Below are positions 5,084 to 29,509 of a DNA stretch of 64,000 bases, in pieces. This stretch comes from an uncultured Erythrobacter sp. Its GTDB lineage: Bacteria; Pseudomonadota; Alphaproteobacteria; Sphingomonadales; Sphingomonadaceae. Where the stretch lies: positions 496,001-560,000 of the forward strand of contig CANKYZ010000001.1 in the NCBI GenBank assembly GCA_947488325.1. Reading direction: 5' to 3'. A program made the translations under genes and the position numbers. How positions within the stretch are numbered: position 1 is the first letter of the stretch; each line of letters opens with the position of its first letter. The notes beneath the pieces are model-generated. The model was given only the letters and a program-made list of their open reading frames with translations. It was not told the origin of the DNA and did not search any database.

Positions 5084-6790
5084 CTAAGTGCGAGTTTCTT
5101 CAAGCAGGGCTTCAAGCTTGGCTTGACAAGAGAGACGCACCCAACGATAGGCGCGCGTCTTGAACAGGAGCCGCGGTAGCTCAGTGGTAGAGCGCGTCAT
5201 TGGTAATGACGAGGCCGAGAGTTCAATTCTCTCTCGTGGCACCATTTCTGTTTTTTGACCCGAAAACCCCGCTAGTGCCTTGAAAGGCATGGCAAATTCG
5301 GTGTTCAATAAGCCCTCTTTCCTATTGAATGACATTGGCCCTGTAACAGCCAGTTTGAGCACCGTGCGGCGCAGTCCGTAATGCCCCGAATCCCACAGTT
5401 TTCTGGGATTTTCGAGAAATTGCAGCGAGAGTTCAATAAGTTCTCTGTAGCCCCTCGCTTTGGGCGGCTTCTTGTCCGCCTTTTCAGCCAGCACGAGCTT
5501 TTGCATTTCAAGCGATGCAATTCGCTTCTCATACGCGGTGATAACGCGAGAGCTCGTAGCTTCGACAGCACGTGCAACAAGGGCTTCCAACTCTTTATCG
5601 AGTGTTCGAACTTGGTCTCGAATTGACTCGCGCTGTGCCCCAGCCTGCGCAAGACGAGCACTCCACAGGTCATCGAACATCATTCTGGCAAGCTCAAAGA
5701 GCTCTTTTGTAGGTGTGAGCTGCGTCAGCAATTCCGCAAACGGTCCCTCGACCTTTTGACGCGGGATTGAGACGTTGCGCTCACTGCACGTGGTATTCTG
5801 ACACCGATAATAGGCGTAATGCTTGTATTTCCCCTTCGACCACGCGGCAGTCAGTAGGTCTCCGCATTCCGAGCAAGCCACCGCTCCGCGCAATGGGAAG
5901 TCTTCATTCAAGTCTTTGCGCATAGGCGCATAGGTGCGCTGATTGGCCTTGGCTTGAATGCGTTGGAAGGTTTCAAAACTGATGATCGGTTCGTGCTTCG
6001 CTTTGCGCAAAGGCACGCCCCAGCTAACCGCTTCGAGATAGCCGGCATAGAGCTTTTGCTTAAACATGCGCGGCACAGTTTGCTTGTGCAGTTCACCATT
6101 GGCTTTTTCGCCTGGGAACTCTGGCTGACGCTCTAAAAAACGCCGCACTTCAGTCGCCGATGAAAAGCGACCGTTTGCATATCCTTCAAGTGCTTCCTGA
6201 ACGATAGATGCGATGGGTTCGTCGCGAACCAACTCTTTGCCACCGCCCTTCGCGCGGACATATCTGTATCCACGAGGCGCGCGCCGTGTCCAATATCCCT
6301 GTTCGAGCCGCGCTTTGGTTTTGTCGTAAGACTGGCGCTTGTTTTGCTCGCGTTCCAATTGTGCTTGAGCAGCGAAGATAATCTCGGTGAAGCGGCCTTC
6401 TGGCGTGTCTTCTGTGTTCAGGTTGAGGAATTGAATGAGCGCTCCACGCTCGGCAAATTCGCGGCGTAGGCGCAAGTGCATTTCGGTTAGTCTGGCAAAA
6501 CGCTTGTGATCATCGAAGATCACTACATACCGTTTCTGGCTCAGGCGCTGGCTATCAAGATAGCACAGAATTTCATGCATGGCCGGGCGGTCGAATATGT
6601 CGTTCTTTCCGCCGGAGACGACATCGAGAAAAACTTTTTCGACTGGAATGCCCTGTGCCTCGGCGTGCTGGCGACCCCGATGCTCTTGGCTCTGCAAGCC
6701 GCTACCTTCGAGCTGCTTTCGGTCAGAGACGCGCGCATAAATCAACGCGACGACTTGGGCGGTGCTTTGTCTTGCTAAAGTGTCCTCCAT
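5084..6790 (-). CDS. Large serine recombinase (element integrase)
   Basis: Catalyses site-specific integration and excision. The N-terminal resolvase domain has ALIYARVSDRKQ with catalytic Ser22. It is followed by a recombinase domain (RRAPRGYRYV), a zinc-ribbon region with CSEC near residue 305 and CQNTTC near residue 327, and a long coiled-coil-like stretch. The start at 6790 is chosen because TGAGGT lies six bases upstream; an in-frame ATG at 6865 would overlap the preceding gene. The integrated gene gives 568 residues, but the last 50 are read antisense through tRNA-Thr and its flank. In the excised circle the frame would continue into 29358-29230 instead, giving 555 residues and an ATGA overlap with mobC. 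Confidence 0.93.
   Translation of the reverse strand: MEDTLARQSTAQVVALIYARVSDRKQLEGSGLQSQEHRGRQHAEAQGIPVEKVFLDVVSGGKNDIFDRPAMHEILCYLDSQRLSQKRYVVIFDDHKRFARLTEMHLRLRREFAERGALIQFLNLNTEDTPEGRFTEIIFAAQAQLEREQNKRQSYDKTKARLEQGYWTRRAPRGYRYVRAKGGGKELVRDEPIASIVQEALEGYANGRFSSATEVRRFLERQPEFPGEKANGELHKQTVPRMFKQKLYAGYLEAVSWGVPLRKAKHEPIISFETFQRIQAKANQRTYAPMRKDLNEDFPLRGAVACSECGDLLTAAWSKGKYKHYAYYRCQNTTCSERNVSIPRQKVEGPFAELLTQLTPTKELFELARMMFDDLWSARLAQAGAQRESIRDQVRTLDKELEALVARAVEATSSRVITAYEKRIASLEMQKLVLAEKADKKPPKARGYRELIELSLQFLENPRKLWDSGHYGLRRTVLKLAVTGPMSFNRKEGLLNTEFAMPFKALAGFSGQKTEMVPRERIELSASSLPMTRSTTELPRLLFKTRAYRWVRLSCQAKLEALLEETRT
5123..5151 (+). promoter_or_regulatory. Candidate promoter of tRNA-Thr
   Basis: A perfect -35 TTGACA (5123-5128) is followed after 17 bases by GATAGG (5146-5151), a weak -10 match, placing transcription start about ten bases before the mature tRNA. 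Spacing and position fit a tRNA promoter. The recombinase reading frame from the opposite strand ends inside this region. Confidence 0.5.
5170..5244 (+). tRNA. tRNA-Thr (anticodon GGT), 3' end used as attachment site
   Basis: The acceptor strand GCCGCGG pairs with the 3' TCGTGGC (with G-T pairs). The anticodon stem CGTCA/TGACG encloses the loop TTGGTAA, giving anticodon GGT (threonine). The T-arm contains GTTCAATTC, and the discriminator A and CCA are encoded. The last bases (from 5238) form the left copy of the element's direct repeat, so the mature tRNA is intact after integration. Confidence 0.95.
5238..5252. repeat. Left attachment repeat (tRNA side) of the integrated element
   Basis: The 15-bp sequence GGCACCATTTCTGTT occurs here, over the last bases of tRNA-Thr and just beyond, and again in the same orientation at 29345-29359. 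The flanking bases differ on both sides of the pair. A recombinase gene reading toward this point and mobilization genes at the other end support the two copies being the junctions of one integration event. Confidence 0.88.
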
Positions 6791-6797
6791 GGCGACC

Positions 6798-7175
6798 TCA
6801 CGTGGTTGAATTGCATTCGCTGCTTCGAGCAAAAGTTTGGTTGAGACTCTCATCTTTTGAGACAATCGATTTTATCACATTGCCGAGGGATTGGTCGGCT
6901 TGATTGATCTCTTGCTCGGTTTGCCCACAAGCAATGTGCTCGCTGCTAACGTGCTGCACAGGATTGAGGTCAAATCCGATATCCACGAAGGCAAACATGA
7001 TCTTGTAGAGCGCCTCGATAAGCTCGCGCTGTTCGCTCTCGCTCATGTCGAAATGCTTTGTGCATTCGAAATACTTCTCGAAGTCAATTTCGACCGTTGG
7101 CTTGTTTGCAACCTCGGAGGAGGCCTGACCTTTTCCGAAGTTGTCTGCGATATGTGTTTTGTCTTTGATCGACAC
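6798..7175 (-). CDS. Unknown 125-residue protein ahead of the recombinase
   Basis: Acidic soluble protein with no family I recognise. The start is GTG at 7175, supported by a strong AAAGGAGGTC site eight bases before it. The central part (SESEQRELIEALYKIMFAFV) looks helical. It ends seven bases before the recombinase start and was probably translated with it, so a role in recombination directionality or its regulation is possible but only inferred from position. Confidence 0.75.
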   Translation of the reverse strand: MSIKDKTHIADNFGKGQASSEVANKPTVEIDFEKYFECTKHFDMSESEQRELIEALYKIMFAFVDIGFDLNPVQHVSSEHIACGQTEQEINQADQSLGNVIKSIVSKDESLNQTFARSSECNSTT

Positions 7176-7216
7176 GATCTGACCTCCTTTCTTGGGTGAG
7201 ATGTCGGACCGCTTAA

Positions 7217-7585
7217 CTATGGCTGACGGTCTAAGTTTTGTTGTTGGCTTTGTGCTGTTTGCTGGCGCGACTGGCGGAATTCTTCGCGACCGTCAGAGAT
7301 GCGGCTTTGCTCGTCTGATTGCTGCTGACTCTGATCGCGATCAGTCTTTTTGAGCTGGCGGATCGTGTTACGGGCACGCGGGGTGAGGCTTGGCAAGCGC
7401 AGCAAATCATCATCACGTAAGTTACGGCTTTCCCGCACCTCGCCTGATTCCTTGTCGGTGTAGATATATCCTACCGTGCTTGTGTAACGCGGCGATCCGT
7501 CCTGAGCAGCATTGCGCCACACTTTGATAAAAGTTGATCCATCAAAATGAGCTTTTGCGGGTGCACTTTTCCTATTGGTCGACAT
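7217..7585 (-). CDS. Unknown 122-residue protein with Gln-rich tail
   Basis: The first half is an ordered-looking segment (STFIKVWRNAAQDGSPRYTS, then GYIYTDKESGEVRES). The second half is low complexity and rich in Q, S, R and D, probably disordered. AAGGAGG precedes the ATG at 7585. It lies in the minus-strand run between the coupling protein and the recombinase, so it may belong to the mobilization module. No function is recognised. Confidence 0.72.
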   Translation of the reverse strand: MSTNRKSAPAKAHFDGSTFIKVWRNAAQDGSPRYTSTVGYIYTDKESGEVRESRNLRDDDLLRLPSLTPRARNTIRQLKKTDRDQSQQQSDEQSRISDGREEFRQSRQQTAQSQQQNLDRQP

Positions 7586-7697
7586 GATACATGCCTCCTT
7601 TCGTTGGTTCGAAGTTGTCTGAAAGTAGTCTCGCTATGAAATCATAAACATGAGAACATAACAAGAACATATTTTCTTGATGTTTACTGCATCCACA

Positions 7698-7937
7698 TCA
7701 GAAACGCGGTTTCAAAGTTGGTGCAGGAGCGCGGCGTTTCCGTGAAGGTTTGGTCTGCGCGCTATGTTCGCCGTCATCTTGGTCGCCATCACGAGTTTGC
7801 CCTCGCGAATGCTCACGTATGTAAGGCGAGCAACGCACACGCTTGAACTCATCGCGAGACATCTCGCCGTTCTTGTGCATGTCTGGCGTTCCGCCAGGAA
7901 GCGTCGCGCGGTAACTGTAAGAGGTGCGGTCATTCAT
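7698..7937 (-). CDS. Small basic unknown protein in the mobilization run
   Basis: A 79-residue hydrophilic protein beginning with the ATG at 7937, with GGAG seven bases upstream. The tail is Arg/Lys/Pro rich (PSRKRRAPAPTLKPRF), the rest charged, with no membrane segment. It starts 23 bases after the coupling protein gene ends and is probably co-transcribed with it. No family recognised. Confidence 0.65.
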   Translation of the reverse strand: MNDRTSYSYRATLPGGTPDMHKNGEMSRDEFKRVRCSPYIREHSRGQTRDGDQDDGEHSAQTKPSRKRRAPAPTLKPRF

Positions 7938-7960
7938 GAGGTATCTCCAATCCTAAGCAA

Positions 7961-9574
7961 TCAATCACCGACGAATGACCAGCGGCCATCGCGGTATTGC
8001 GGGTAGTGTGAAAAGTTGGCTGGCACGGGCTCTTCGCGCACGTTGCGCCATTTGTGCCCGAGCAGCGTCTTCACACGGACGCGGTTCAGTGGCGGATGAT
8101 ATGGATTGGGATGGAAGCGCCCCGCCATAAAGCGTTGCTCGAAGTAAGGTTTGCGTGTTGCATAGATCGGTGCGCCGAGCCCATCCAGGAAGACATACAT
8201 TTTGTCTTCGGGCGTGTTCAAAACCTCATCTGGCGTGCGCAGCATTCGGTGCATCTTGGAGGATCGCTGCGCGCTCTCGCTTTGGTGACGATAGTTCAGC
8301 GCCGCTGCTAGTGGATCATCGCCATTCAACATTGATTGAATGGCCTGATTTTTGGCAAAGCGCGCAGCGGCTTGCGAATGCTCGTCATCGTATTCGAGAG
8401 TTTGGGCACCTAGCATCTGCGAGATTGAGTGCGCCGTGCCAATGTCGCGAACAGCGAAGTAGAGCCGCAGCGCCGCCGATGACGTGATGATGGTTTCGGC
8501 GTTCGGGCCGATATCCTCCATCTGCTTGGTGCTTTGAAACACCGCGACAGGTCGAATGCCGATGCCTGCGCCATACGTGAAGAGCTTAGTGACAAGCGGA
8601 AAGCCGCCGAGCTGGGCGCATTCGTCCAGTACCCAAGTCTGACGCGGCGCTTGAGGTGCGCGCGACTTATGGATCATTCCCGCCACAAACATGGATTTGA
8701 GCACGGGAGCCCAGGCGGAGACATATTCCGCAGGCGGCATGAGATAGACTTGATAGCGAAGATCTCCCTTGCACAGATCGCCGAAAGAGAAATCAAAAGG
8801 GGGCGAGAGAGATTCCATCAAAATGGGATCACTGAGCGCCGAGAATGCACGGAACAGTTCGCCAAGGATGCCTTGAAAGCCGCCGCCGTCACCTCGACTT
8901 TCGCGAGCCATCGCGATCTCTTCTTCGATACGTTTTGAAAGCGGATAACCGCAGGTATGCATCTCATATGCGAAGTCGAGCCACGCATCGTTGTTGGTGG
9001 GAATGAGATTGATGGTGTCGTAAAGCGCTGGATAGGTAAGAACGCCGTCCAGCTTTGTGCGTGTGGCAGCGATCCCCTCAAAAAATTCGCGGGCGCGGCC
9101 ACTGAAGTAAGGACTGTCCTTACTCCCCTTTTGGACGATCATGTTTTCGCATAAAACCTTGATGTCAGGGATCATGGTCGGGCTATCAGCCCTTATGTGA
9201 TCAAGCGGATTGATCCTGTTGCAGTCTTGGCCATTTAGCTCGCACGGATTCCAATAGATATTGAACTTGTTATCAGGCGTTTGGTCTTGACTGATCGCAG
9301 CCAGCTCGCCTTTCATGTCGAGCACAACCATTGTCTCGTCAGAGCAGATACCGTGGCATAAATTGTAGCCAAGATTTGTAGTGAGTTTGCCGCCACGAGC
9401 GCCTGCAATCAGCAGAACGCCGCCAGCCCCATCATACCAAATGGGTTTTCCATCATCATCAAAGGCGACAAACAGCGCGCTTGGTGTTTGCTTTTTGAGG
9501 TGCGCGCGCGCGATTGTTTGGCTATCTGCAAAGTGCGCGCTGCCATGGCGAAAAATTTCGTTTTCGAGGTTCAC
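7961..9574 (-). CDS. VirD4/TraG-like type IV coupling protein
   Basis: An ATPase that would hand the relaxase-DNA complex to a secretion channel. The 537-residue protein shows the TraG/VirD4 layout: a P-loop region GARGGKLTT (residues 58-66), then VVLDMKGELAA, a Walker B segment WVLDECAQLGG near residue 318, and AVFQSTKQMED as in motif III. Two oddities: the P-loop is degenerate (Ala at the first Gly position, Leu after the Lys), and the N-terminal membrane anchor usual in VirD4 is absent. The start is GTG at 9574 with GGAG seven bases upstream. A small membrane protein encoded just upstream could supply the anchor. Confidence 0.88.
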   Translation of the reverse strand: MNLENEIFRHGSAHFADSQTIARAHLKKQTPSALFVAFDDDGKPIWYDGAGGVLLIAGARGGKLTTNLGYNLCHGICSDETMVVLDMKGELAAISQDQTPDNKFNIYWNPCELNGQDCNRINPLDHIRADSPTMIPDIKVLCENMIVQKGSKDSPYFSGRAREFFEGIAATRTKLDGVLTYPALYDTINLIPTNNDAWLDFAYEMHTCGYPLSKRIEEEIAMARESRGDGGGFQGILGELFRAFSALSDPILMESLSPPFDFSFGDLCKGDLRYQVYLMPPAEYVSAWAPVLKSMFVAGMIHKSRAPQAPRQTWVLDECAQLGGFPLVTKLFTYGAGIGIRPVAVFQSTKQMEDIGPNAETIITSSAALRLYFAVRDIGTAHSISQMLGAQTLEYDDEHSQAAARFAKNQAIQSMLNGDDPLAAALNYRHQSESAQRSSKMHRMLRTPDEVLNTPEDKMYVFLDGLGAPIYATRKPYFEQRFMAGRFHPNPYHPPLNRVRVKTLLGHKWRNVREEPVPANFSHYPQYRDGRWSFVGD

Positions 9575-9690
9575 GAGAAGTCTCCAAAGTGCAGCCGTCC
9601 TCGCTCCGAGGCGCAGAACGTCTCGGCAGATTGAACTGCTAGGTTGTTTTGAGATTGTTTGAGAAGGCTCGCGCGCTGCCTTCCCAAGAC

Positions 9691-9707
9691 CGGGCTAGGT
9701 TAGCCCG
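9691..9707 (-). terminator. Stem-loop overlapping a stop codon
   Basis: Perfect 7-bp inverted repeat, read on the minus strand as CGGGCTA-ACC-TAGCCCG. It contains the stop codon of the small gene ending at 9700. There is no T-run, so it may be an attenuator or mRNA-stability element between that gene and the coupling protein gene rather than a full terminator. Confidence 0.4.
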
Positions 9708-9831
9708 CGCAGTTGCCAAGCAGGCCGATTCCAATGACGATCATGATAACCCACCCCCAAACAGGGATTTCAGGATCAGGATCGCGGCGATAAACCGTGC
9801 CTACTGGTGACCAATTACTCTTCTTTGCCAT
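9700..9831 (-). CDS. Small single-pass membrane protein (43 residues)
   Basis: An ATG at 9831 preceded by AAAGGAG opens a 43-residue frame: a charged N-terminal half (KKSNWSPVGTVYRRDPDPEI), then a hydrophobic segment (VWGWVIMIVIGIGLLGNC) long enough to span the membrane, ending CAG. It lies between another membrane protein and the anchorless coupling protein in one minus-strand run, so it could recruit mobilization proteins to the membrane. That role is inferred from position only. Confidence 0.65.
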   Translation of the reverse strand: MAKKSNWSPVGTVYRRDPDPEIPVWGWVIMIVIGIGLLGNCAG

Positions 9832-9858
9832 GTCAAATCTCCTTTATGGCGTTGGTGG

Positions 9859-10158
9859 TTAGAAAATGCGGGTCGCGAGCGTTAGCGCGCCCATCACAAG
9901 AGCAGTGCTGAGCGAGGCTCTTGCAACGAAGAATATGAAGGCAGCGCAGACGCATCCCCAGAGGATCGCGACGATATCGCCGCTCGCGCTGTAATGAGCC
10001 TGTGAGAAGCCTTGGACCCAGCCTACAGTCGCTGAGTACAGCGGGCCCGTGCCAAAGAACGTACAAGCCACGGCAAGCACATTTGAGAGTCCCTTCATCG
10101 AGCTCATGAAGATCGCTTCACTTGCCTTTGCTTGGCTCTGTTTCTGCTGTCCGAGCAT
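9859..10158 (-). CDS. Small polytopic membrane protein
   Basis: A 99-residue protein with a short hydrophilic N terminus and two or three hydrophobic segments (NVLAVACTFFGTGP, DIVAILWGCVCAAFIFF, then LSTALVMGALTLATRIF). The ATG at 10158 is chosen because GGAAGG lies seven bases upstream; the open frame extends to a GTG at 10263. It heads the minus-strand mobilization run. Size and hydropathy recall small type IV secretion membrane proteins, but I cannot assign a family. Confidence 0.6.
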   Translation of the reverse strand: MLGQQKQSQAKASEAIFMSSMKGLSNVLAVACTFFGTGPLYSATVGWVQGFSQAHYSASGDIVAILWGCVCAAFIFFVARASLSTALVMGALTLATRIF

Positions 10159-10266
10159 ACGGTTGCCTTCCATCGTTTGTGGTTTCGATGGAGTGAGTTT
10201 CCTCAAAACAGCCCAACCCGTCGCGGCATCTTGACTATTTGACAAGCAGATTAGAAATATCACTGT

Positions 10267-10929
10267 ATGTCAGAATATTACAGGCAGCGCGGCCCCTATC
10301 GCGGGGCCAAGATCAGCGCAGCAAAGCTTGAGCGCGTTGCGCGCTGTTTTGTCCGAGGTCTATCCGTGAGCGAGGCGACCCGTGAAACGCATGTTTCTCG
10401 GCCAACGATAGGTCGTCTATTTCGCGAACTCAGGCGGCGCGTCTTTCTGATGCCCGAGATTCATGGAGGTTTGTGGGATGCGGAGGCTTTCAGGCCCCCA
10501 GAGGCCTCATTTTGGGCAGAACTACAAAAGTGCGTTTACGATTGTCCGATGCAAAACGAATCAGGAGAATTCCGCACGAGTTTTTTACCGAATAATTTTC
10601 AGAGAAAGGCAGGAGCACGTATTCCACAAACTAGGCGGATTGCGATCAATCGACGAGGATCGTGCGATGATTGCCGCTTCAAGCTCAACTCCGAGAAACT
10701 TGATGCTGCGTATTTTCGGGAGCTTATCCAATTCCGCTGGAAGACTCGTAGGATTGATGCCTCAGACTTTCGCGACATCTATTTCACAATGATATTTCGA
10801 GCGAAGCGCCTTCGATCTGGTGTCTTCTCGGGCGCCGACACACTTGAAAGCAATCGAAAGATTGGACACGAGGAATGCGTGGGGCTTTTACTAGCATCAT
10901 TCACGAATGAACCAGAGTTTCTCACATGA
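10267..10929 (+). CDS. Putative HTH DNA-binding protein
   Basis: A 220-residue protein with an N-terminal helix-turn-helix-like stretch around residues 17-58 (AKLERVARCFVRGLSVSEAT, then HVSRPTIGRLFRELRRR), resembling the DNA-binding part of transposase-like regulators. A central CDDC and the rest of the chain are unfamiliar. It is divergent from the mobilization run, starting about 110 bases from the 10158 start, so it is a plausible regulator of that run. No catalytic transposase triad is evident. Confidence 0.65.
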   Translation: MSEYYRQRGPYRGAKISAAKLERVARCFVRGLSVSEATRETHVSRPTIGRLFRELRRRVFLMPEIHGGLWDAEAFRPPEASFWAELQKCVYDCPMQNESGEFRTSFLPNNFQRKAGARIPQTRRIAINRRGSCDDCRFKLNSEKLDAAYFRELIQFRWKTRRIDASDFRDIYFTMIFRAKRLRSGVFSGADTLESNRKIGHEECVGLLLASFTNEPEFLT

Positions 10930-10931
10930 GC

Positions 10932-11087: not shown

Positions 11088-11104
11088 ATTTCCTCAAAAC
11101 TTTA

Positions 11105-11911: not shown

Positions 11912-12388
11912 TCAGGTGGCGCGGGCTCCCGATTCAGACCGTTGTTTCGCAGGTTTCCTTGGTCTCCCAGGGTATCGCCCACGCTTTGCTGCCTCCGCGA
12001 GGCCAGCGAGCGTTCGTTCACTGATCATGCGTCGCTCAAGCTGAGCCACAGCCCCAAGAATATGAAACACGAATTCACCAGTCGGCGATGAGGTGTCGAT
12101 TTTGTCATTCAAGCTATCGAGATAGGCGCCTCGCTCGCCGAGCAGGTCATTGATCTCAATGAGGTGCTTGAGCGAACGGCCCATGCGGTCAAGCCGCCAG
12201 ATCACCAGCGTATCGCCTTCGCCAATATCGGCGAGCAACGCACCGAAAGCAGGGCGGTTTTTGACCGTTCCGCTGACCCCATGATCTTTGTATATTCTCG
12301 TGCAGCCCGCGTCTTTCAGCGCCGTGAGCTGTAATTCAAGGTTTTGATCAGCGGTGCTGACCCGCGCGTAGCCAAGTTTTTGCGACAT
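11912..12388 (-). CDS. Small serine resolvase / DNA invertase
   Basis: A 158-residue member of the Tn3 resolvase/invertase family. The N-terminal catalytic motif GYARVSTADQN carries the nucleophile serine, VIWRLDRMGRSLKHL follows, then QLERRMISERT and a short C-terminal DNA-binding part. The ATG at 12388 has GGAGGAG upstream. It is distinct from the large integrase. It may resolve or invert a local segment, and inverted repeats just upstream are candidate target sites. Confidence 0.9.
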   Translation of the reverse strand: MSQKLGYARVSTADQNLELQLTALKDAGCTRIYKDHGVSGTVKNRPAFGALLADIGEGDTLVIWRLDRMGRSLKHLIEINDLLGERGAYLDSLNDKIDTSSPTGEFVFHILGAVAQLERRMISERTLAGLAEAAKRGRYPGRPRKPAKQRSESGARAT

Positions 12389-12413
12389 TCTCTCCTCCAA
12401 GCAGTGCAATTTG

Positions 12414-12434
12414 CGCTGATCACAATGATCAGCG
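12414..12434. repeat. 9-bp perfect palindrome upstream of the resolvase
   Basis: CGCTGATCA-CAA-TGATCAGCG is a perfect inverted repeat with a 3-base spacer, 25 bases upstream of the resolvase start. It could be an autoregulatory operator or a res-like subsite bound by a recombinase dimer. Confidence 0.55.
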
Positions 12435-12455
12435 GTTTTCACACACCACTCGGAT

Positions 12456-12600: not shown

Positions 12601-12645
12601 AAGCGTTTAATTCGCGCCGCCATAGAGATGAAAGGCAGGTGCGAC

Positions 12646-15757: not shown

Positions 15758-15773
15758 ACATAGCTTATCATAA

Positions 15774-17329: not shown

Positions 17330-17617
17330 GTGACCGATAACAGATCAAATCCGATTTACAAAAACGCTTTGCGCAAGCTGTGCGCTGTCTGCCCGACAGC
17401 GCGCTTGTGCTTCGGTGCTGACACACCTTCGGCAAGGGAGACATGCTGTCTCCCGTTGCATCCCTCTGGCTTAATTCAGGATTTTGTGGATTTCCCTGCG
17501 CGCGATTTGCTATCTTTGTTTGATGAAATTCACAGTTCTACCAGATCGAAAATCGACACCTCGGATCAAGACCCAATATGCCCTGAAAAGGAGCGACTGG
17601 GACGATTTTGGATTTAG
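17330..17617 (+). CDS. Doubtful Cys-rich 95-residue frame
   Basis: A frame beginning with GTG at 17330 and overlapping the ptuA start by 95 bases. It contains C-x2-C-x5-C (LCAVCPTARLCFGAD) and a CC pair, a spacing like that in the radical SAM enzyme at 16.5 kb. There is no ribosome site. It may be a Cys-rich peptide or iron-sulfur protein linked to the neighbouring radical SAM gene, or a chance frame in the region before ptuA. Confidence 0.25.
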   Translation: MTDNRSNPIYKNALRKLCAVCPTARLCFGADTPSARETCCLPLHPSGLIQDFVDFPARDLLSLFDEIHSSTRSKIDTSDQDPICPEKERLGRFWI

Positions 17618-20001: not shown

Positions 20002-20044
20002 TTCAATGACATGTAGCTGCTTGGGTACGGAACAAAGGCATGCA

Positions 20045-20138
20045 GACCCAATCGAATACCCAATTGGACCCGATATAGATAAACTGGCAGCAATCAGAAA
20101 GTTGATGCAAATTTGGGTCTAATCGGGTATTATTGGGT
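20045..20138. promoter_or_regulatory. Phased ACCC/GGGT repeat array upstream of the Fic gene
   Basis: Three GGGT units at 20115, 20125 and 20135 are exactly 10 bases apart (GGGTCTAATC, GGGTATTATT, GGGTATGAAA), one helical turn each. About 60 bases upstream three ACCC units (20046, 20058, 20068) occur in opposite orientation. This looks like a cooperative operator, possibly for the Fic protein's own C-terminal winged-helix domain. Confidence 0.55.
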
Positions 20139-20167
20139 ATGAAATTGGATATCAGGACATTCTGGAG

Positions 20168-21226: not shown

Positions 21227-21307
21227 CGAAGAGCGACCCTTTGGATTATGCATCCCCTTCGGCTTGCTCGAGCTAGGGCCCGAACCATCGCGTCGTCACA
21301 TACTTAT

Positions 21308-21341
21308 TGTCTACATCGAATTGACTATGCGAAAGTAGACA
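21308..21341. promoter_or_regulatory. Inverted repeat upstream of the SIR2/Argonaute operon
   Basis: TGTCTAC (21308-21314) and GTAGACA (21335-21341) form a perfect 7-bp inverted repeat separated by 20 bases, with TTGACT between them. It lies 30 bases before the SIR2 start and is a candidate operator. Confidence 0.4.
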
Positions 21342-21371
21342 GACGTGCCTGTAAAATCATATCATTCGTAA

Positions 21372-23138
21372 ATGGAACAATCTGACTTTATTAGAAGAGT
21401 TACGGAATCCCCTAACCATTTCGCTTGGTTCTTGGGCGCAGGGGCATCACAGAGCGCGGGCCTTCCGACAGCTTGGGATATCATATGGGACTTGAAGCGG
21501 CGTTATTATACGACCGAAGAGGACCAGATTGTTCCCCCAAACGACATTCAAAATGCGGCGGTTCGTGAAAAAATCCAATCCTATATGGTGTCCAAGGGCT
21601 TTCCTGAAGATGGCTCACCAGACGAATATACGACCTATTTCGGACTCATCTTCGGCGATGATAGAGAGCGCCAAAGGCGATATGTCAGCGCGATCCTCGC
21701 CGATGACAAAGCCTCGCTTTCGCTAGGCCATCGCGTACTGGCCGCGCTCATTTGTTCAAAGATTACCAAGGCCGTTTTCACAACCAACTTTGATAACATT
21801 GTCGAACGCGCGGTTGCAGAGGTGGGTGGGCAAAGCCTCGCACCTTTTCACATAGAAGGAGCCTACGCTGCGAATGAAGCGATCAACTCCGAACAGTACC
21901 CTGTCTACTGCAAGCTACACGGCGATTTCCGCTATCAGAGTATCAAAAACTTGGCCGACGATTTGCGCGAGCAAAACGCAGAGCTAAGCAAAGGGTTCTT
22001 GAACGCCTGTAATCGATTCGGCTTGATCGTCGCCGGCTACAGCGGTCGCGACGAAAGTGTCATGACGCTGCTTGAAGAGGCTCTCCAGACCGCAAACCCA
22101 TTTCCCTACGGCTTGTATTGGACCAAGCTGAAGGGATCGGAGCCCCTCCCGATCGTCACAAACTTGATAGCCACGGCGCAGAGCCGAGGCGTTTCAGCGC
22201 ACCTAGTGGATATCGAGACATATGACTCGATGATGTCCCGCATCTGGCGTCAAATTGAAAATCCCAATCCGGAGTTGGACGCTAAAGTTCGCAAAGCCGC
22301 TAGGCAGGAAGTTGACATTCCGCTTCCATCGGCTGGAAAATCCAACCCAATCATTAGGTCAAATGGGCTCCCCATCACGCGTCTCCCGACGATGTGCCAA
22401 GCACTCAATTTTAAGGCTGACAAGGACTGGCAGGACCTGCGCGATGCTGAAAGCAAGAGCGGTGATACTATCATTTGTGCTAAAGCCGAACGCACCTTGG
22501 CGTGGGGCACCAGCAAGGCTCTTGAGCAGGCATTTGGAAGTGATCTGACCAGCACGGAGGCAATCGATCTGTCAGGTCAACTCGAAGAGATAGAGAGCAA
22601 TCTCTACCTCAAGGCACTACTGGAAAAAGCAATCTGCCTTTCACTTAAGCGAGATAAGCCACTGGTCGTGAGGCCTTGGCGCGGTGGGTACACCTTGATT
22701 GCAACGGCACAGGCACAATCTCATCAGGCATTTGCTTCTTTAAGGAGCGCTCTCCAATCTACTCTAACTGGTGATGTGCAGGGTCTTTTGACTTCAGCGA
22801 CGGAAGAGCATCCGAAGCGCAAGCAGATATCTTGGGCAGAAGCGGTCCAAATCGATATCGAAATGCGCGATGGTAAGGCCTGGCTACAGCTACAGCCAGA
22901 TATCTGGATATGGCCCAGATGGGGGCGTGATGAGGCAATAGATATCCTCGATAAACGCAAGGGCGGTCGTTTCAATCACAAAGCTGATCGCATTTTGAGC
23001 GCATGGATAAAAGCCTTGCTGCCGACCGATGGAAAGGCAGCCGACTGCGAGATCAGTCCATTTGCATCGGGTGAGTCAGATGAAAACCCTGTGTTCGTGG
23101 TCAATAGCCGCACCGCATTCAGTCGAAGGAGCGGATGA
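21372..23138 (+). CDS. SIR2-APAZ NADase of a short-Argonaute (SPARSA) system
   Basis: Effector half of a SIR2-APAZ/short pAgo defence pair, expected to deplete NAD when the Argonaute senses invading nucleic acid. The 588-residue protein has an N-terminal SIR2 domain with [16 protein letters not shown] (residues 20-35), TTNFDN (137-142) and the catalytic His183 in KLHGDF. The C-terminal half, from about residue 340, is consistent in place and size with an APAZ domain. The four-base overlap (ATGA) with the next gene supports a complex of both products. Length and pairing match known SPARSA systems; the APAZ call rests mainly on context. Confidence 0.85.
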
Positions 23139-24547
23139 TGGCAACAGAGCATTCTCAATTACCTGGATATTCGACCACAGCTGAGCCTTCCTTGGTCTTT
23201 GCCGAAGGGCAATTGGACAAGCATCCGCTGCGCGGCATATTGAGATTTGGTCCCTATTCTCACTCCCTCGGGGTGCCCGCCCGCGTTCGCGTCGCACTCT
23301 TATACCCAGAAGGCCAATCAGCAAAGCTTGAGGGAATTTGTCGCGAGCTCACTCAAGCGGCTACCCCAAGAGAAGCAAAGAACTACTACCCTGCCTATCC
23401 TGGCTTCGAACAGGCCTTTCGTATTCCGTTCGAAGGTGGAGGGGCAAACCTCTCCTTCACATTGCCAAGCGACATGGACGCGCTGGCGCAGCGTTTCGAC
23501 AGGGCAGGCCTTGCTAAGCGATTGTTCGAAGTCATCGGTGGAATCGGAAGCCAACGATCCAACTTTGACGTGTTGCTAGTCTACCTCCCCGATACTTGGG
23601 AGCGGTGTTTTGAAGCGCCTGGCTTCGATCTACACGATTATCTCAAGGCGTTTTGCGCCCCATCGAACATTCCAATTCAGATCATACGAGAAGGAGCCTT
23701 GCGGCGAACTTGTCGTGCGCAGGTTATGTGGGGTCTGAGCGTTGCGCTCTATGCGAAAGCGAATGGCATTCCATGGAAGCTGTCTGGCCTTAACAAGGAA
23801 GAAGCATTCATCGGCATCAGCTATGCCATGAAGCCCGTCAATGAAGGCGCAGAATACACAACTTGCTGTAGTCAGGTTTTCGATCCTGACGGCACTGGAT
23901 TCCAGTTTGTCGCTTATGACGCGCGAGAATTCACCAAAGATCGGCGGGACAACCCCTATTTATCGTATCACGAGATGTACAGCGTGATGTCCCGCAGTCT
24001 GGAGATATATCAGCGTGGCCATTTTGGGCGGTCGCCGAAGAAAGTTACGATTCACAAGAACACGCCATTCAGAGATGATGAAGCTCTTGGAGCGCTGGAC
24101 GCTTTTAACGAGGGAACCGAGATCGAGCTGGTTCAAATCGTGCAAAGCACCGACTGGTCGTTTACAAAATACGGTATCAAAAAGGCCGAAGCCGAAGGAT
24201 ATCCGGTTGATCGCGGAACCGTGCTGCCGATCTCGCACAAAGAGGCCTTGTTGTGGACTCAAGGCAGCGTGCGAGGCGTTCACATGGAAAGCGACTACTA
24301 CAACGTCTACAAAGAAGGGGCACTCAAGCCCGTTCCAACACCTCTTCTTATTCGCCGCTTCAGTGGAGCAGGAGGATGGCACGACACCTGCTCAGGAATT
24401 CTCGGCCTGACAAAGATGGATTGGAACAACAACACGCTCTATAAGAAGCTTCCCGTCACACTTGAATACTCTCAACGGTTCGCTCGCATAATTCAGCAGA
24501 ATCCCGCTTTGGTTGATGACCTCTTTGACTTCCGCAACTTCATGTAG
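23135..24547 (+). CDS. Short prokaryotic Argonaute (MID-PIWI, catalytically inactive)
   Basis: Guide-binding partner of the SIR2-APAZ protein. The 470-residue length fits a short pAgo of MID and PIWI domains only. The PIWI catalytic positions look lost: the first aspartate position reads FIGISYAM (Ser229 region) and the later one VTIHKNTPF (Asn309 region). This is expected for short pAgos, which sense rather than cut. The start overlaps the SIR2 gene by four bases. About 216 bases without a recognisable gene follow before the nuclease gene. Confidence 0.85.
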
Positions 24548-24763
24548 CCAAACAGATGGCACTGCATTGCGTATCCGAGAAGCTGTCAGAAACCAGCTCG
24601 GTCAGACAAACTGCAAATTAGCTACCGTTACAAAACCCATTCGAGGCCTGATCTCGACTACCTTTAAGAGATTGATTATATTATCTAAAAAGTTCAACTC
24701 CGACGAGATTGAAAAACAGACGGTGTCCCTGTAGTATATATTATAAATAGCGCAGTGTGACAT

Positions 24764-26293
24764 ATGACCAGACAGTTCAAGAACGTGGAGCAGATTCTCA
24801 AGCTTAAAGGCGCAATGCTGTCCAGTAAGGTGTCTCAAATATTCCAGGATCAAGGCCTGAGTGCTGCTGCCGCTCGACAGCGTGTCTTCCGTAGGTCAGC
24901 GTCTGTAAGGACGTTGCATGGCCTCCCATTCACCAAGAATGCCAAATTCCTATATCTCGAAGGTGAGTTCGGAACGCCAAAGTTCTTCGACAATCTTCTC
25001 GCAGAGCTGGAGGACTCAGCTCCTGGCTATGCAGCAGCGCTCTACGGTTTGGCGGCCCGTGGAGGCATTTGCCTACTCAAAGATTGGAATATCGTTTCCG
25101 GATCGCCCGTTCTGCAAAAGGGGCATGTATCCAGCGAGGAAGTGCTTAGGCGCCTCAAAAGCGTGAAGCTACTGGACGAGCGAACAATCGCTGGGATTGG
25201 CGATTGCGTTGTCTTGGCCCCTTGGGTGGGGAGCATAAATTTTGCGGCATTCCGAGCACGCTTGACGCTTGAGCGCATTGCTATTGAAACGGTGAGGCAA
25301 TGGGCGGTGCGAATGGGCTATTCCTCGAAGGACACGATCAAGACTCGATTTGATCATGAGCTTCCGAAATTCTCGACGTTCAGCTTCGACATCGTTGGCC
25401 CGTCCTACCTCAAGGCCTTGCTGGTTCAGACCAAGAACGGCCCTAAGAACGGATTTTTCGTAGCGGATGTCGTCTGGTTAGGCGAGCTCAGAGAACAGGA
25501 TGCCAAGTCATTCTTGCGAAAGGTCGCGACACTTTCCTCGCTGAAAAATCTTGGGCGATTTCAGCCCATGCTGGTGTCTGATGGTTTTACGCGGGACGCA
25601 ATAATGGCATGCCGAGCCAAAGGCGTGATGGCGGTCACCGTCGATACATTGCTTGGCCGTGATGTTGCGATTGCGTTGCGTGAATTGCTCGACGTGCTGA
25701 CGCGTGCCGCACAGGTGGCAATCGGCAATCCAGCCAAGATCGATGAGATTTTCGACAAACTTTCAACGGTCGAAGGTCTCTCCGGAAATCTACGCGGAGC
25801 CATGTTTGAGTTGATTGTCGGTCATATCGCCAAAGACCTGCTGGGCGGTTCTATCGATATCGGAGAAATCGCGACCAACCCTGCCGACAATAGCCGAGCA
25901 GACATTGATGTCCGGCAGGTCGGGCAGGATCAGGTGGTGTGCATCGAGTGCAAAGGCTATGATGCGGCCAACGATGTTTCACTCGAAGATGTCAAATACT
26001 GGCTGGAAAAACAGGTCCCGATTATCAGGGCATCCCACGCCTATCAGCAGCGTTTTGATCAGAAGGCTGAAATCTTCGAGTTCTGGACTACAGCCAAATT
26101 CTCGAAAGAGGCAAAGGTTTATTTGAAAGAGCGAAAAGCAGCTATCAAGAAGTATCAGATTGGCTGGAAGGCAGGCCCAGAGGTACTTGCTGAGGCGCGT
26201 CGGCTGTCTTCCCCGATGATTCTGAAGACTCTAAAAACGCACTATTTCGAAAAAACGCCGACTATGGTTCTTGGATTGGCAGAGGCTCAATAG
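24764..26293 (+). CDS. PD-(D/E)xK nuclease of unrecognised family
   Basis: A 509-residue protein. The C-terminal part carries a restriction-endonuclease-like core: Glu349 in GAMFELIVGHI, Asp380/Asp382 in RADIDV and Glu395-Cys-Lys397 in VVCIECKGY. The N-terminal 190 residues look like winged-helix DNA-binding segments (LSSKVSQIFQDQGLSAAAAR). The middle part (residues 228-295, from NGFFVADVVWLGEL) resembles a second, degenerate nuclease-like fold; this is a visual impression. It directly follows SPARSA and precedes ardA. It may be a stand-alone defence nuclease, and no methyltransferase partner is visible. I do not recognise the full architecture. Confidence 0.72.
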   Translation: MTRQFKNVEQILKLKGAMLSSKVSQIFQDQGLSAAAARQRVFRRSASVRTLHGLPFTKNAKFLYLEGEFGTPKFFDNLLAELEDSAPGYAAALYGLAARGGICLLKDWNIVSGSPVLQKGHVSSEEVLRRLKSVKLLDERTIAGIGDCVVLAPWVGSINFAAFRARLTLERIAIETVRQWAVRMGYSSKDTIKTRFDHELPKFSTFSFDIVGPSYLKALLVQTKNGPKNGFFVADVVWLGELREQDAKSFLRKVATLSSLKNLGRFQPMLVSDGFTRDAIMACRAKGVMAVTVDTLLGRDVAIALRELLDVLTRAAQVAIGNPAKIDEIFDKLSTVEGLSGNLRGAMFELIVGHIAKDLLGGSIDIGEIATNPADNSRADIDVRQVGQDQVVCIECKGYDAANDVSLEDVKYWLEKQVPIIRASHAYQQRFDQKAEIFEFWTTAKFSKEAKVYLKERKAAIKKYQIGWKAGPEVLAEARRLSSPMILKTLKTHYFEKTPTMVLGLAEAQ

Positions 26294-26531
26294 CGCGTCC
26301 CTACGGGTCGGGCTTTCGTGAACCGAACTCGCTAGGCGGTTTCGACCATTCGGCTTCAATCCCTCGCGTTACTTAGGGACCAGCCCCTCAGCGCACTTCA
26401 CGTAATATAGACGGTCTCCCGAGGCTCGCCTTCGGCTGCGCCCGCCGTCGATTTTCCGTTCCGTTTGCACACCCCGCTCTCGCCGATGGGCAAGGTTGCA
26501 TGAGCAACCCCTAACCCCATTGGAGGGAGAA
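26294..26531. other. Non-coding leader region upstream of ardA (candidate ssDNA promoter/oriT area)
   Basis: No gene is seen in these 238 bases. They hold several short GC-rich inverted stretches and one perfect hairpin, GGTTGC-ATGA-GCAACC (26494-26509), just ahead of the ardA ribosome site. In conjugative plasmids ardA lies in the leading region near the transfer origin and can be expressed from single-stranded promoters. Whether this region has such a role is inference. Confidence 0.3.
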
Positions 26532-27059
26532 ATGACTAAAGAACCAATTCAAATCCCAGTTCGCATCTATGTGGCCTGTCTGGCTGCCTACAATAATGGC
26601 TATCTGCACGGGCGCTGGATTGATGCCAAGCAAGACGCACGGGCGATCCATGATGCCATCCGCGCCATGCTGAACACTTCACCAATTGCGGATGCGGAAG
26701 AATGGGCCATTCACGACTATGAGGGTTTTGGCTCTCTTTCGATCTCGGAATATGAGGGGATTGAGTATGTTGCCCAGCTCGCGGCCTTTATCGCCGAGCA
26801 TGGCGAGTTAGGCGCGGAGCTGATCAATCACTTCGGTGATATAGAGCAGGCCAGCGAAGCGCTTGAAGATGGCTATCATGGCAGTTTCGAAAGCCTTGCC
26901 GATTATGTGCAGAGCTTGACCGAAGACACAGGCCAAATCCCAGAACATCTGCGTTTCTACATCGATTGGGATGCGATGGCGCGTGATGCGGAAATGAGCG
27001 GCGATCTCTTTACCGTTCAAACAGCGCACGATGAAGTCCATGTGTTTGCGGGATGCTGA
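26532..27059 (+). CDS. ardA: ArdA-family antirestriction protein
   Basis: A DNA-mimic protein that inhibits type I restriction enzymes on entry to a new host. The 175-residue acidic protein shows the ArdA start (PVRIYVACLAAYNNGYLHGR, then WIDA), the EWAIHDYEGF segment, and a Glu/Asp-rich C-terminal half. The ATG at 26532 has GGAGGGAG immediately upstream; the open frame extends to 26496. Adjacent to the relaxase end of the element, as expected for a leading-region gene. Confidence 0.92.
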   Translation: MTKEPIQIPVRIYVACLAAYNNGYLHGRWIDAKQDARAIHDAIRAMLNTSPIADAEEWAIHDYEGFGSLSISEYEGIEYVAQLAAFIAEHGELGAELINHFGDIEQASEALEDGYHGSFESLADYVQSLTEDTGQIPEHLRFYIDWDAMARDAEMSGDLFTVQTAHDEVHVFAGC

Positions 27060-27061
27060 TC

Positions 27062-27475
27062 ATGAAAAGCATTCCAAAAACTTTTGCGGTTGATCCACAG
27101 CGCTTCGCTTGGGGCCACTGGTGCCACAAGCGTAATCGCCAGATCGGTGAAGGGGATATTGGTGCAAGCTACAGTGCAGATCGGATTGGAGGTGAGGGGG
27201 CGGTCCGACGACCGTTTCGCCACGAAGGTGTTGATTGGGTTGCCACCAGCACGTTCAGCAATTCTGCGAGAGCATATCGGCTTGTTCATCCATCACAGTT
27301 CGAAGGGGGAACGCTTTCTTACGTCGAGCGCGTCAGCGATGGTCACCGAGGCAGATGCGCTCCAGAGGGTTTCTATCACGGAATGCGGGTGAAGCGTGGG
27401 CGCGAAGAGATGGTCTTGTGCGGTCCAGAGACAAAATTCATCGCAGGAGAGCCTGAGCAAGGCTCGCTCTTTTAG
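27062..27475 (+). CDS. Unknown protein downstream of ardA
   Basis: A 137-residue basic protein with several His, Trp and Arg residues (AWGHWCHKRNRQIGEGD) and no recognised motif. The ATG at 27062 follows the ardA stop by two bases; an ATG at 27053 overlapping the ardA end is the alternative. It is convergent with the relaxase gene, their ends overlapping by four bases. Probably co-expressed with ardA during transfer. Confidence 0.65.
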   Translation: MKSIPKTFAVDPQRFAWGHWCHKRNRQIGEGDIGASYSADRIGGEGAVRRPFRHEGVDWVATSTFSNSARAYRLVHPSQFEGGTLSYVERVSDGHRGRCAPEGFYHGMRVKRGREEMVLCGPETKFIAGEPEQGSLF

Positions 27476-28875
27476 CGCGAAGGATCGAAGCCGCGTGTTG
27501 GGCCGCGTTCGACAGTACGTTCTTGCACCTGCTTCCGCCGCTTCCTCTTGAATTCTTCTCGTGCCGCGCTGTGCTTGAAGTCTTCCGATACGCTTGCCTT
27601 TGGTGCATCGGGAATTGACACCTTCTTGAACGATGCAGCAGCCTTAGAGCGTTCGAGCGTGGACTCTGGAACGTCTGACAGACGCCTGACGTCAGAAGCC
27701 AGCTCTCGCCGTTGTTCGACGCTCCGTCTCCTAGCGGCCTTGAACCGTTCCAAAACGACGCGTCGTTCGCTCAAATGTTGAAAGACAAGCGCGTCTTTTT
27801 CCCTTCGATCTCGCAGCACGGCTCGATATGCCTCTGCCATATTCTCTTCGCGGATACGTTTCACCCGTCCCGAGAAATGATCCATGAGGCCTCGCCAACC
27901 GCGATTGAAACGCTCTTGGCGCATGGCCGTCTCGCGCTTCCATCGCGCCTGTATGGCTGCATTCTGCCTCGCTCGCTCTTGTGCTTGCGTGGTGGCGAGT
28001 GCTTTGCGTGCTGTCTCTTGCTGCTCTCGAAGCTTCAGCGCATTGCGCGCCTCTTCTTCCTGTATCTCGCGCAAGCGTTGTGATGTCTCGCTGACGAACT
28101 CAGCTTTGCGCTGCTCTACAGACGGCAAGGTGCCATCTATTTCCCCAAGCCGCATACGAACATCTTTTGTCTTAACTCCTGTCCATCGCGCAACAGCATA
28201 GACTTCGCCTTGCCTGTCTACCGCGACGAAGCCACGCCTATCACCGCGCGCCAGCTTGTAGCCCCGCGTTTCGAGGGCATTGGCAAAGGCTGCGCGGGAG
28301 TCTGATACGGCCCAGCAATCCTGAAACACTGTTTTGATCGCCTTAGGGTCTTTTTCGGCGCGTTTGGCCTGTTGCCATTCCTCCAATGTGAAATTGCGTG
28401 GATCGCGCTCCTCACTCTTCATCAGGCCACGCGGCATTTTGAAGCCGTGCTCTATGAAGAGTTCGCGCGATAGCTCGGTCAGTTTTCGCTTTGTGTGCGA
28501 AAGCTGGACCGCTTTCATTTCGTTAGAGTCGATACGGCTCCACACGGCATGCGCATGGCGACGACCTTGCTTTTCATGAAAGACGATAGCGCGCGGCTGG
28601 CCGCTTAAACCGAGACGCTCCTCCACCTGCTTGATCGCTGCCTCGAAAGCCTCGGTTGAGACTTCCTGATCAGGCGGCGGATTAGCGCTGAGCGAGAACA
28701 GGTGTTGCTTACATCGTGTTGCACGGCTGATCGCGTAGCTCTCGTTGAGTGCGGACATCAGATTGTCCGACACGAACCCGCGCAGATCGTGCACCTGTAC
28801 GTGATCGTTCTCCTCTTTGAGGAGATGGATTGCGAGGTCTTTGGCTCCTCCACGTTGATTGCCGACTAAGATCAT
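27472..28875 (-). CDS. Relaxase (MOBP/VirD2-like mobilization nuclease)
   Basis: Nicks the transfer origin and pilots the strand. The 467-residue protein has an N-terminal relaxase domain with a metal-binding motif H100-E-K-Q-G-R-R-H107-A-H109, then AVWSRID; ESYAIS (residues 45-50) offers a candidate catalytic tyrosine. The C-terminal half is a long Arg/Glu/Gln-rich helical stretch. It starts seven bases after mobC. With the coupling protein it makes the element mobilizable. Confidence 0.9.
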   Translation of the reverse strand: MILVGNQRGGAKDLAIHLLKEENDHVQVHDLRGFVSDNLMSALNESYAISRATRCKQHLFSLSANPPPDQEVSTEAFEAAIKQVEERLGLSGQPRAIVFHEKQGRRHAHAVWSRIDSNEMKAVQLSHTKRKLTELSRELFIEHGFKMPRGLMKSEERDPRNFTLEEWQQAKRAEKDPKAIKTVFQDCWAVSDSRAAFANALETRGYKLARGDRRGFVAVDRQGEVYAVARWTGVKTKDVRMRLGEIDGTLPSVEQRKAEFVSETSQRLREIQEEEARNALKLREQQETARKALATTQAQERARQNAAIQARWKRETAMRQERFNRGWRGLMDHFSGRVKRIREENMAEAYRAVLRDRREKDALVFQHLSERRVVLERFKAARRRSVEQRRELASDVRRLSDVPESTLERSKAAASFKKVSIPDAPKASVSEDFKHSAAREEFKRKRRKQVQERTVERGPTRGFDPSR

Positions 28876-28882
28876 GCTCGCC

Positions 28883-29233
28883 TCATTGCGGTTTGATGCC
28901 GAGAGCGGTGGTCAGATCATGGCGAATTTTTTCGATGGTTAGGCAGGCCGCACGGAGGTTGAGCAGCAAGTCCCCGCCTTGAGCGACCGTGCCTTCTTGC
29001 GTTGCATCAGCGATAGTTCGCATCGACTTCGGCAATTCGGATTGACCAAGTGTGGCGAGAATTTGCGCAAGAAGGATTTCGTCAGCCTTGGGGCGGCGAT
29101 GCGCTTTCCGAGGTTTCGCATCACCACCAAGCAATTGCTCGCGGGCATAAGTGCTTAGCGGACGGTCGCGAGCCTTGCGCTCCAGTGCCTCCCATTCGGA
29201 ACCAGTAAGGCGGATCGTTAGGCGCTTGCTCAT
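28883..29233 (-). CDS. mobC: MobC-like ribbon-helix-helix accessory protein
   Basis: A 116-residue basic protein beginning SKRLTIRLTGSEWEALERKA, the beta strand and first helix of a ribbon-helix-helix DNA-binding domain, with a C-terminal helical part (LLLNLRAACLTIEKIRHDL) typical of relaxosome accessory proteins. The ATG at 29233 overlaps, as ATGA, the stop of the reading frame at 29230-29358 that forms the recombinase tail in the excised circle. In the integrated state that upstream coupling is broken. Confidence 0.86.
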   Translation of the reverse strand: MSKRLTIRLTGSEWEALERKARDRPLSTYAREQLLGGDAKPRKAHRRPKADEILLAQILATLGQSELPKSMRTIADATQEGTVAQGGDLLLNLRAACLTIEKIRHDLTTALGIKPQ

Positions 29234-29358
29234 GGTTCAAGCGCCTCCCAATCAATGTTCTCAGCCTCTAAGACTTTGTTCCAGCGTTCCAGCTCATCGA
29301 ACAATTCATCGGGTGGAATTGTGTTCGATGAAATGATCCCGTTGGGCACCATTTCTGT
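29230..29358 (-). other. Detached 3' part of the recombinase gene (joined in the excised circle)
   Basis: Forty-two codons plus overlap in the same frame as the recombinase when the two direct-repeat copies are merged: TEMVP from the repeat, then an acidic tail ending NIDWEALEP and a TGA that overlaps the mobC ATG. In the integrated state this segment is separated from the recombinase by the chromosome and could be read only from chromosomal DNA. The frame match, acidic helical character and ATGA overlap argue that it is the native C terminus. Confidence 0.78.
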
Positions 29359-29359
29359 T
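29345..29359. repeat. Right attachment repeat of the integrated element
   Basis: The second copy of GGCACCATTTCTGTT, identical to 5238-5252. To its right the DNA (29360-29509) should be the original flank of tRNA-Thr. That flank begins CCTGTCATTTTTGACC and so partly resembles the element's left end (TTTTTTGACC or similar), as expected of related attB and attP half-sites. Confidence 0.86.
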
Positions 29360-29509
29360 CCTGTCATTTTTGACCGCGATAGCCGCGTCGAACGCAGGCT
29401 GTCGGATTTCCTCAAAAAAAGACCCTCCTACCCCCACTTTTGACGATACGCCTTGGCTCTAGGCTCCGCTATCCCATGCTCTGTAACAACGCAGCTTGGA
29501 GAGTGAACG

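Follow-up and report, generated by a model that had tools for sequence, protein, structure and literature searches.

Our analysis concerns a 24.1-kb integrative mobilizable element in a 64,000-nt stretch of the genome of an uncultured Erythrobacter sp. (hereafter the window, meaning that whole stretch), where it spans from a tRNA-Thr gene (5170-5244) to position 29359 and carries genes for a large serine recombinase (LSR), a coupling protein, MobC and a relaxase (Table 1). Its assignment to this class of elements considered the presence of a recombinase together with a relaxase, the defined ends lying in a specific site and the only partial transfer apparatus; among 20 scanned open reading frames (ORFs), Pfam recognized the coupling protein and the relaxase and no other part of a type IV secretion system. 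Close homologues of the gene on the right flank (at 29510, SDR-like by eye) were found in 11 genomes of the same genus, and within short flanks a tRNA-Thr(GGT) gene was seen upstream of this gene in six of them. All four same-genus genomes with longer flanks hold the left-flank genes, the tRNA-Thr and the right-flank gene together and free of the element, at distances of 0.3 to 2.7 kb between the tRNA and the right-flank gene. Because these four genomes carry the same flanks without the element, the window can be regarded as an insertion at the 3' end of tRNA-Thr.

The element is bounded by an exact 15-bp direct repeat, GGCACCATTTCTGTT, which is the longest exact match between the compared end regions and has no further exact copy elsewhere in the 3.27-Mb genome, the copy at the tRNA end taking in the last 7 nt of tRNA-Thr(GGT). 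The recombinase frame, on the minus strand, passes through this left copy, and the right copy lies in the same frame, within a reading frame that remains open past the core. When the two ends are joined through a single copy of the repeat, the frame stays open to a TGA at 29230-29232 that overlaps the ATG of mobC (ATGA), and the joined recombinase is followed by the MobC/NikA-like gene and then by the MobA/VirD2-type relaxase. With the Met at 6790 as the first residue, the integrated form has 568 residues, 518 of which are shared with the joined form while the last 50 are read antisense to tRNA-Thr and its flank, and the joined form has 555 residues (518 plus a tail of 37 that ends in EALEP), or 576 from the ATG at 6853 and 580 from the TTG at 6865. 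A sequence-only reading of this DNA had already proposed the repeat lying in frame at both ends, the far-end stop overlapping mobC, the 50-residue antisense tail and the 555-residue joined recombinase preceding mobC and the relaxase, and these proposals were all borne out, the residue counts being valid if Met 6790 is the start. Integration at the tRNA 3' end cuts the recombinase gene 37 codons before its stop, leaving the antisense-tRNA tail at the near end and the native tail, mobC and the relaxase at the far end. This in-frame arrangement is more than chance because many diverged elements repeat it, as detailed below.

The recombinase showed Pfam matches above the cut-off to Resolvase, Recombinase and Zn_ribbon_recom, as expected for an LSR, and all of these domains end ahead of the repeat that marks the attachment (att) point. 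Foldseek searches with a structural model of the integrated form matched whole serine integrases of SPbeta, Bxb1 and phiC31, the model itself being of moderate quality (mean predicted local distance difference test score, pLDDT, of 75.7 and predicted template modelling score, pTM, of 0.54) and the antisense-tRNA tail falling in a stretch with pLDDT below 50 (residues 534-589). Residue S43, which we take to be the catalytic serine, was invariant across 48 aligned sequences. Since the catalytic and DNA-binding domains stay in one ORF, inactivity of the integrated form is not expected.

The joined protein was used as the query against 149 genomes of the host family and matched in 50, mostly through weak and distant similarities. 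Six of the seven strongest matches in other genomes of the family (E < 1e-100) end at residues 536-539 of the 576-residue query, which correspond to the att point, while the seventh (in genome G023, with two stops) ends at 551. At the class level, matches at E 1e-60 or better were found in 23 of 385 genomes, including the host genome itself, and a scan of genome contigs detected 495 stretches encoding a relative of the recombinase, from which the best 80 were kept; on viral contigs, 80 of 132 loci were kept and no intact recombinase gene was present among the best 12. Altogether 122 loci (L042-L163) were analyzed, 116 of which hold a recombinase C terminus, and these take in the copy of the window (L124) and three duplicate pairs, leaving 113 distinct loci. 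An antisense tRNA was found at the end of the recombinase ORF in 95 of the 116 loci (93 of 113 when counted by distinct C terminus), corresponding to tRNA-Thr (26), Arg (18), Leu (16), Ala (15), Val (7), Ser (5), Tyr (4), Met (3) and Phe (1). Five of the other 21 loci lie at contig edges, and several of those remaining resemble antisense tRNA by eye with no tRNA called. The tRNA-side tails of the relatives vary with the tRNA targeted, which does not agree with such a tail being the conserved C terminus of the enzyme, and the frames of the homologues cross the att point, as opposed to a native recombinase that would stop before it; neither of these two outcomes, which the sequence-only reading had named as capable of overturning it, was encountered.

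To compare the far ends of related elements, stretches of up to 60 kb around further elements were examined, giving 41 regions with the window included, and 27 of these carry a relaxase of the same family on the same strand; the remaining 14 (remnants, short contigs, G383, G247, G536, G524 and others) were kept outside the tail count. This restriction biases the count towards intact elements, as the search itself does towards relatives of the recombinase. At their far ends, 25 of the 27 relaxase-bearing regions share a conserved tail, [SN]xLFexLxxWexxL; there, a minus-strand frame containing LFxxLxxWxxxL (variants allowed) ends 1-544 bp upstream of the open frame of the relaxase. The two exceptions are G139, the contig of which stops within the relaxase, and G157, in which the tail lies about 4 kb from the relaxase with other sequence between. 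In G383 the tail is present and no relaxase was found in the 13.8 kb available, and in total the tail was recognized in 27 regions, with and without mobC adjoining. The entropy by codon position across the 25 tails was 1.08, 0.75 and 1.61. At the L, F, L and L positions of the motif the residue is nearly invariant, while the wobble base varies; this freedom at the kept leucines indicates that the tail is conserved at the protein level.

Besides, the joining phase is conserved. Pairing by the longest repeat failed in several elements with cores of 6-8 bp, and tails anchored on the relaxase and cores anchored on CCA were used instead, which gave a CCA-anchored core of 6-15 bp for 21 of the 25 tails (G133, G538, G534 and G252 had no usable core match); by comparison, 1.45% of random 105-nt windows hold a CCA-anchored match of at least 8 bp. 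Wherever a core of at least 6 bp pairs the ends, the recombinase and tail frames agree in phase (21 of 21, or 21 of 22 when G252, with a 3-bp match only, is counted), and an excision point that would shift the frame, the third outcome that could have spoken against the earlier reading, was not seen among these 21 pairs. G535 (L295-L297) is the sole paired element with its core in another phase, which is alike at both ends (0/0 versus 1/1) and still in frame. In 19 of 25 elements, the stop of the tail and the start of the next gene overlap (as ATGA in 13), and in 22 of 25 the two are no more than 14 nt apart; this next gene starts MobC-like in all 25 (loose pattern and by eye). Of 21 elements, 17 lack an in-frame start codon in the interval from the core to the tail motif. 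The tail pattern was composed after the first tails had been seen and is not blind, the phase test and the motif described next being less dependent on it. Taken together, these comparisons of sequences make it almost certain that the far-end tail is the native C terminus and that attP is built into the recombinase gene.

The DNA that encodes the tail carries a second signal. In the targeted tRNAs, the T-loop motif (TTCGAA or a near form) begins 20 nt before CCA, whereas in the tail DNA the offset of 25 nt before the core CCA was the best for this motif in 21 of 21 elements, with at least five of six bases kept in 16 and four of six in the other five; at random places with a fixed offset, at least five of six bases were found in 0.43%. 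Relative to its place in the tRNA, the motif of the tail DNA is hence shifted 5 bp away from the core in 20 of 21 elements, the exception being G539a, which has no tRNA called. Across the 21 tails, GTT at -26 to -24 and A at -21 are invariant, while C at -23 and G at -22 reach 81%. In the attP sites of serine integrases of the A118/LI type, the zinc-domain motif is displaced outwards by 5 bp relative to attB, and this offset also fits most of the other LSR systems compared (PMC3783163, cited here, like all sources below, from its available portions). The outward shift was found in the same 20 elements and on one side only. It identifies the tail DNA as half of attP independently of the frame join, and it is an extension beyond the first reading, absent from the earlier claim. 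The GTTCGA motif (-26 to -21) coincides with the conserved Ser-Asn codons of the tail, and because of this overlap the tail DNA can be said to be read in two ways. The motif + core search recovered 19 of 21 known far ends in the regions plus 10 other candidates there; it led to the tails of G157 and G383 and gave candidates in G247, G032b and G005, the candidate in G247 reading into no tail and being rejected.

Other insertions of this recombinase family were also noted. The host genome of the window holds a second, remnant recombinase C terminus (L040, G000:C4:223276-223548) ending at tRNA-Ser(GGA), which was probably left by a further insertion of this family. In genome G133, the same left end of an element occurs at two tRNA-Arg genes (L314 and L317, anticodons TCT and CCT), which suggests two copies or recent movement. 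A contig of this genome (C10, 30,620 bp, with the recombinase at its start and the tail at its end) was considered as an excised circle and rejected, as a terminal overlap of at least 15 bp is absent; it is more likely a collapsed two-copy element because two tRNA-Arg contigs run into the same left end.

In the explanation that we consider likely, the element is an integrative mobilizable element with attP inside the coding sequence of its own LSR. On the inferred circle, one strand would carry in order the coupling protein, the recombinase, mobC and the relaxase, the stop of the recombinase overlapping the start of mobC. In the donor, the truncated recombinase, with all recognized LSR domains intact, would excise the element, probably aided by a directionality factor, and excision would rebuild the full-length recombinase gene and join mobC and the relaxase to the minus-strand transcript; because of this proposed joining, DNA processing would be favoured only in the circular state. 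Once in the recipient, the circle would give rise to the full-length protein, which would integrate the element, and integration would end the synthesis of both the full-length recombinase and the relaxase. From the gene order and the translational overlap we soundly infer that the transfer genes would be off in the integrated state and on after excision, and a tie between transfer genes and excision seems rather probable. Simple scans of the minus strand revealed nothing resembling a terminator within the element, either between 10.4 kb and attL or between attR and the point where the relaxase ends. More tentatively, recombination may generate two recombinase isoforms, a full-length integrating enzyme from the circle only and a truncated one with a host-tRNA-encoded end when integrated only; we regard as similarly doubtful that the two protein forms would differ in direction or stability, and the fuller proposal, in which the 37-residue tail would be a switch of direction or stability and the same event would toggle the relaxase genes, deserves no greater confidence.

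Several observations weigh against this explanation. Neither a circular form nor a junction read nor a transcript was observed, a contiguous native tail was found in none of the 116 recombinase genes by a regular-expression scan that diverged tails may escape, and none of the 43 plasmid records with a match covered 80% of the joined query in one place. No far end was detected in G247 or G536, with 44 and 60 kb available, and the chromosomal side of attR showed no comparable motif, nor did the recombinase side of attP show a clear one. The 21 phase agreements are not independent events because the elements share descent, and the pairs G273/G252 and G531b/G532 are nearly identical in the tail. 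The tail and mobC are separated by 52 nt with a hairpin (by eye) in G127, by 103 nt in G268, by 109 nt in G045 and by about 4 kb in G157; because these elements and G383 differ, the regulatory part cannot hold unchanged in all relatives. A sigma-70-like promoter was not found in 5100-10400 or 27300-29700 by a consensus scan that is uninformative for this host, and mobC may have expression of its own, since the scan used the sigma-70 consensus alone. From the att-site switch put forward in the sequence-only reading, the att site within the gene, the native tail at the far end and the predicted excised order recombinase-mobC-relaxase are strongly supported, while the operon link turned out not to be universal in the relatives.

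These separations between tail and mobC, whether gap, hairpin or other sequence, agree with an alternative in which the gene is truly split merely to save space, mobC and the relaxase having their own promoter and both recombinase proteins being alike, with no switch. That every recognized LSR domain precedes the att point also speaks in its favour, but the overlap of stop and start in 19 of 25 elements and the conservation of the tail favour a use of the joined state, and we consider this alternative unlikely, though it is the best of those weighed. It is quite improbable that the tail is conserved solely as the DNA of an attP half-site with the protein as a by-product: the coincidence of the Ser-Asn codons with GTTCGA would fit, but LF..L..W...L lies past that motif, and its leucines are constant as residues while the third base varies. 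Even less probable is a separate small gene or a leader peptide of mobC expressed in the integrated state, as the overlap with mobC in most elements and the far-end frame open past the core in the window would allow; 17 of 21 elements lack an in-frame start codon between core and motif, the join with the recombinase is in phase in 21 of 21, and G383 has the tail with no relaxase found nearby. Finally, attP sites commonly adjoin integrase genes and an open frame of 37 codons is by itself weak evidence, but an accidental tail, where attP overlaps the recombinase 3' end by chance and the frame beyond is meaningless, is highly improbable given the like residues with wobble freedom in 25 elements, the equal phase in 21 of 21 and the tail kept in G383 and G157, where mobC was not found in the available stretch or is distant.

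Table 1. Features of the element and of its insertion site, in window positions.
Feature	Position	Strand	Remarks
Large serine recombinase, integrated form	5084..6865	-	Start TTG 6865, ATG 6853 or ATG 6790 (uncertain)
Predicted native C-terminal tail NGIISSNTIPPDELFDELERWNKVLEAENIDWEALEP, stop TGA	29230..29344	-	In-frame join; like the tails at the far ends of relatives
GTTCGAT, T-loop-like motif of the putative attP half-site in the tail coding sequence	29323..29329	+	TTCGAT starts 25 nt before core CCA
Host tRNA-Thr (GGT)	5170..5244	+	ARAGORN; 3' half read as attB half-site
T-loop of tRNA-Thr, TTCAAT	5222-5227	+	Starts 20 nt ahead of CCA
attL core repeat GGCACCATTTCTGTT	5238..5252		Within recombinase frame; exact match
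attR core repeat GGCACCATTTCTGTT	29345..29359		Exact match
MobC/NikA-like accessory protein	28883..29233	-	Pfam NikA-like, E 5e-4, under its cut-off; ATG overlaps tail stop
MobA/VirD2-type relaxase	27472..28875	-	Pfam PF03432, E 8e-15
VirD4/TraG-type coupling protein	7961..9574	-	Pfam PF02534, E 8e-35; upstream of recombinase, same strand
Small ORF overlapping recombinase start	6798..7175	-	No Pfam match
Small ORF upstream of recombinase	7217..7585	-	No Pfam match
ORF opening the minus-strand block	9859..10263	-	Homologue adjoins coupling protein in G127

The small ORF that overlaps the recombinase start could, as a guess, be the place of a directionality factor. A defence-like cargo at 17484-26293 comprises a PDC-M01A/B pair (PtuA-like ATPase and partner), a SoFic-like Fic protein, a SIR2 protein with a short prokaryotic Argonaute, which we take to be a SPARSA-like pair, and one ORF without a match. 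An ArdA antirestriction protein (26496-27059) adjoins the end of the relaxase and would fit early expression after transfer. The element also carries a separate small serine resolvase (11912-12442) and a radical SAM/SPASM protein (15877-16803) with a C-terminal stretch rich in Cys, Asn and Pro and weaker pVip-type matches in the defence library, which is possibly a peptide-modifying enzyme.

Integrase genes that split themselves are presented as exclusively archaeal in the available part of PMC8371274; if confirmed, these results would add bacteria and serine recombinases, and the 495 contig stretches that encode a relative point to a large family. Because none of the 116 genes showed the intact form in the motif scan, the annotated C termini of such genes would be made by host tRNA. 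With this arrangement, an element could in a simple manner couple its DNA transfer to excision and, once integrated, restrain its own recombinase. Additionally, the T-loop mimicry is a possible reason why one enzyme family targets tRNA genes of nine amino acids and would aid the finding of new integrases and attachment sites. The available portions of the literature covered, on att sites within recombinase genes, serine recombinases at tRNA genes, T-loop recognition and split integrases, gave no account of a bacterial serine recombinase that its own att site splits; this coverage leaves out most subscription papers and preprints, and the negative is no proof of absence.

Serine-recombinase elements of Firmicutes and integration that disrupts dispensable genes are treated in a review of mobilizable elements (PMC5704250). 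A related system is pPDL2 of Sphingobium fuliginis, a mobilizable element with attP at the 3' end of int1 that targets the 3' end of a seryl tRNA gene; there, attP was predicted among intergenic sites with int placed after copG, and the accessible text describes no split int (PMC3516476). In ICEKp1, the state of integration sets the promoter that serves the integrase gene at a tRNA site, which in the portions available affects the transcription of int and not its coding sequence or the transfer genes (PMC13023037). The serine integrases of A118/LI, Bxb1, phiC31 and SPbeta share with the enzyme of the window their domains, fold and the 5-bp offset between attP and attB (PMC3783163). In contrast to these, here the T-arm of the tRNA is matched on one side only and attP runs across the 3' coding end of the recombinase.

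The att site of Tn916 is not known to split a gene, and its recombinase is a tyrosine enzyme. The transfer genes of Tn916 have no promoter while it is integrated and are read through the junction once it is a circle, and Tn916 employs an antiterminator RNA (canT); excision-coupled expression of transfer genes is therefore already known in principle (PMC11658703), and the gene order of the element in the window would fit it. The integration-dependent immunity of mycobacteriophages likewise relies on attP in a coding sequence, often with a tRNA target, and on removal of the 3' end that alters the protein, the split gene being a repressor and the removed end an ssrA-like degradation tag (PMC9934374, PMC9262239). 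In the window, the split gene is a recombinase and the tail, ending in EALEP, is not a tag of this kind. In SSV1, attP reportedly lies within the integrase gene. The archaeal suicidal (SSV-type) integrases, such as those of SSV1, pTN3 and pT26-2, are likewise split by integration, and these tyrosine recombinases are divided into an N-terminal and a catalytic C-terminal part and described as inactive (PMC8371274). The element of the window shares with them the att site in the gene and the split itself, but its enzyme has serine recombinase domains, is bacterial, keeps its catalytic domain and is followed in the joined state by mobC and the relaxase; because the C-terminal tail alone is lost, the family of the window would be a milder counterpart of the archaeal suicidal integrases.

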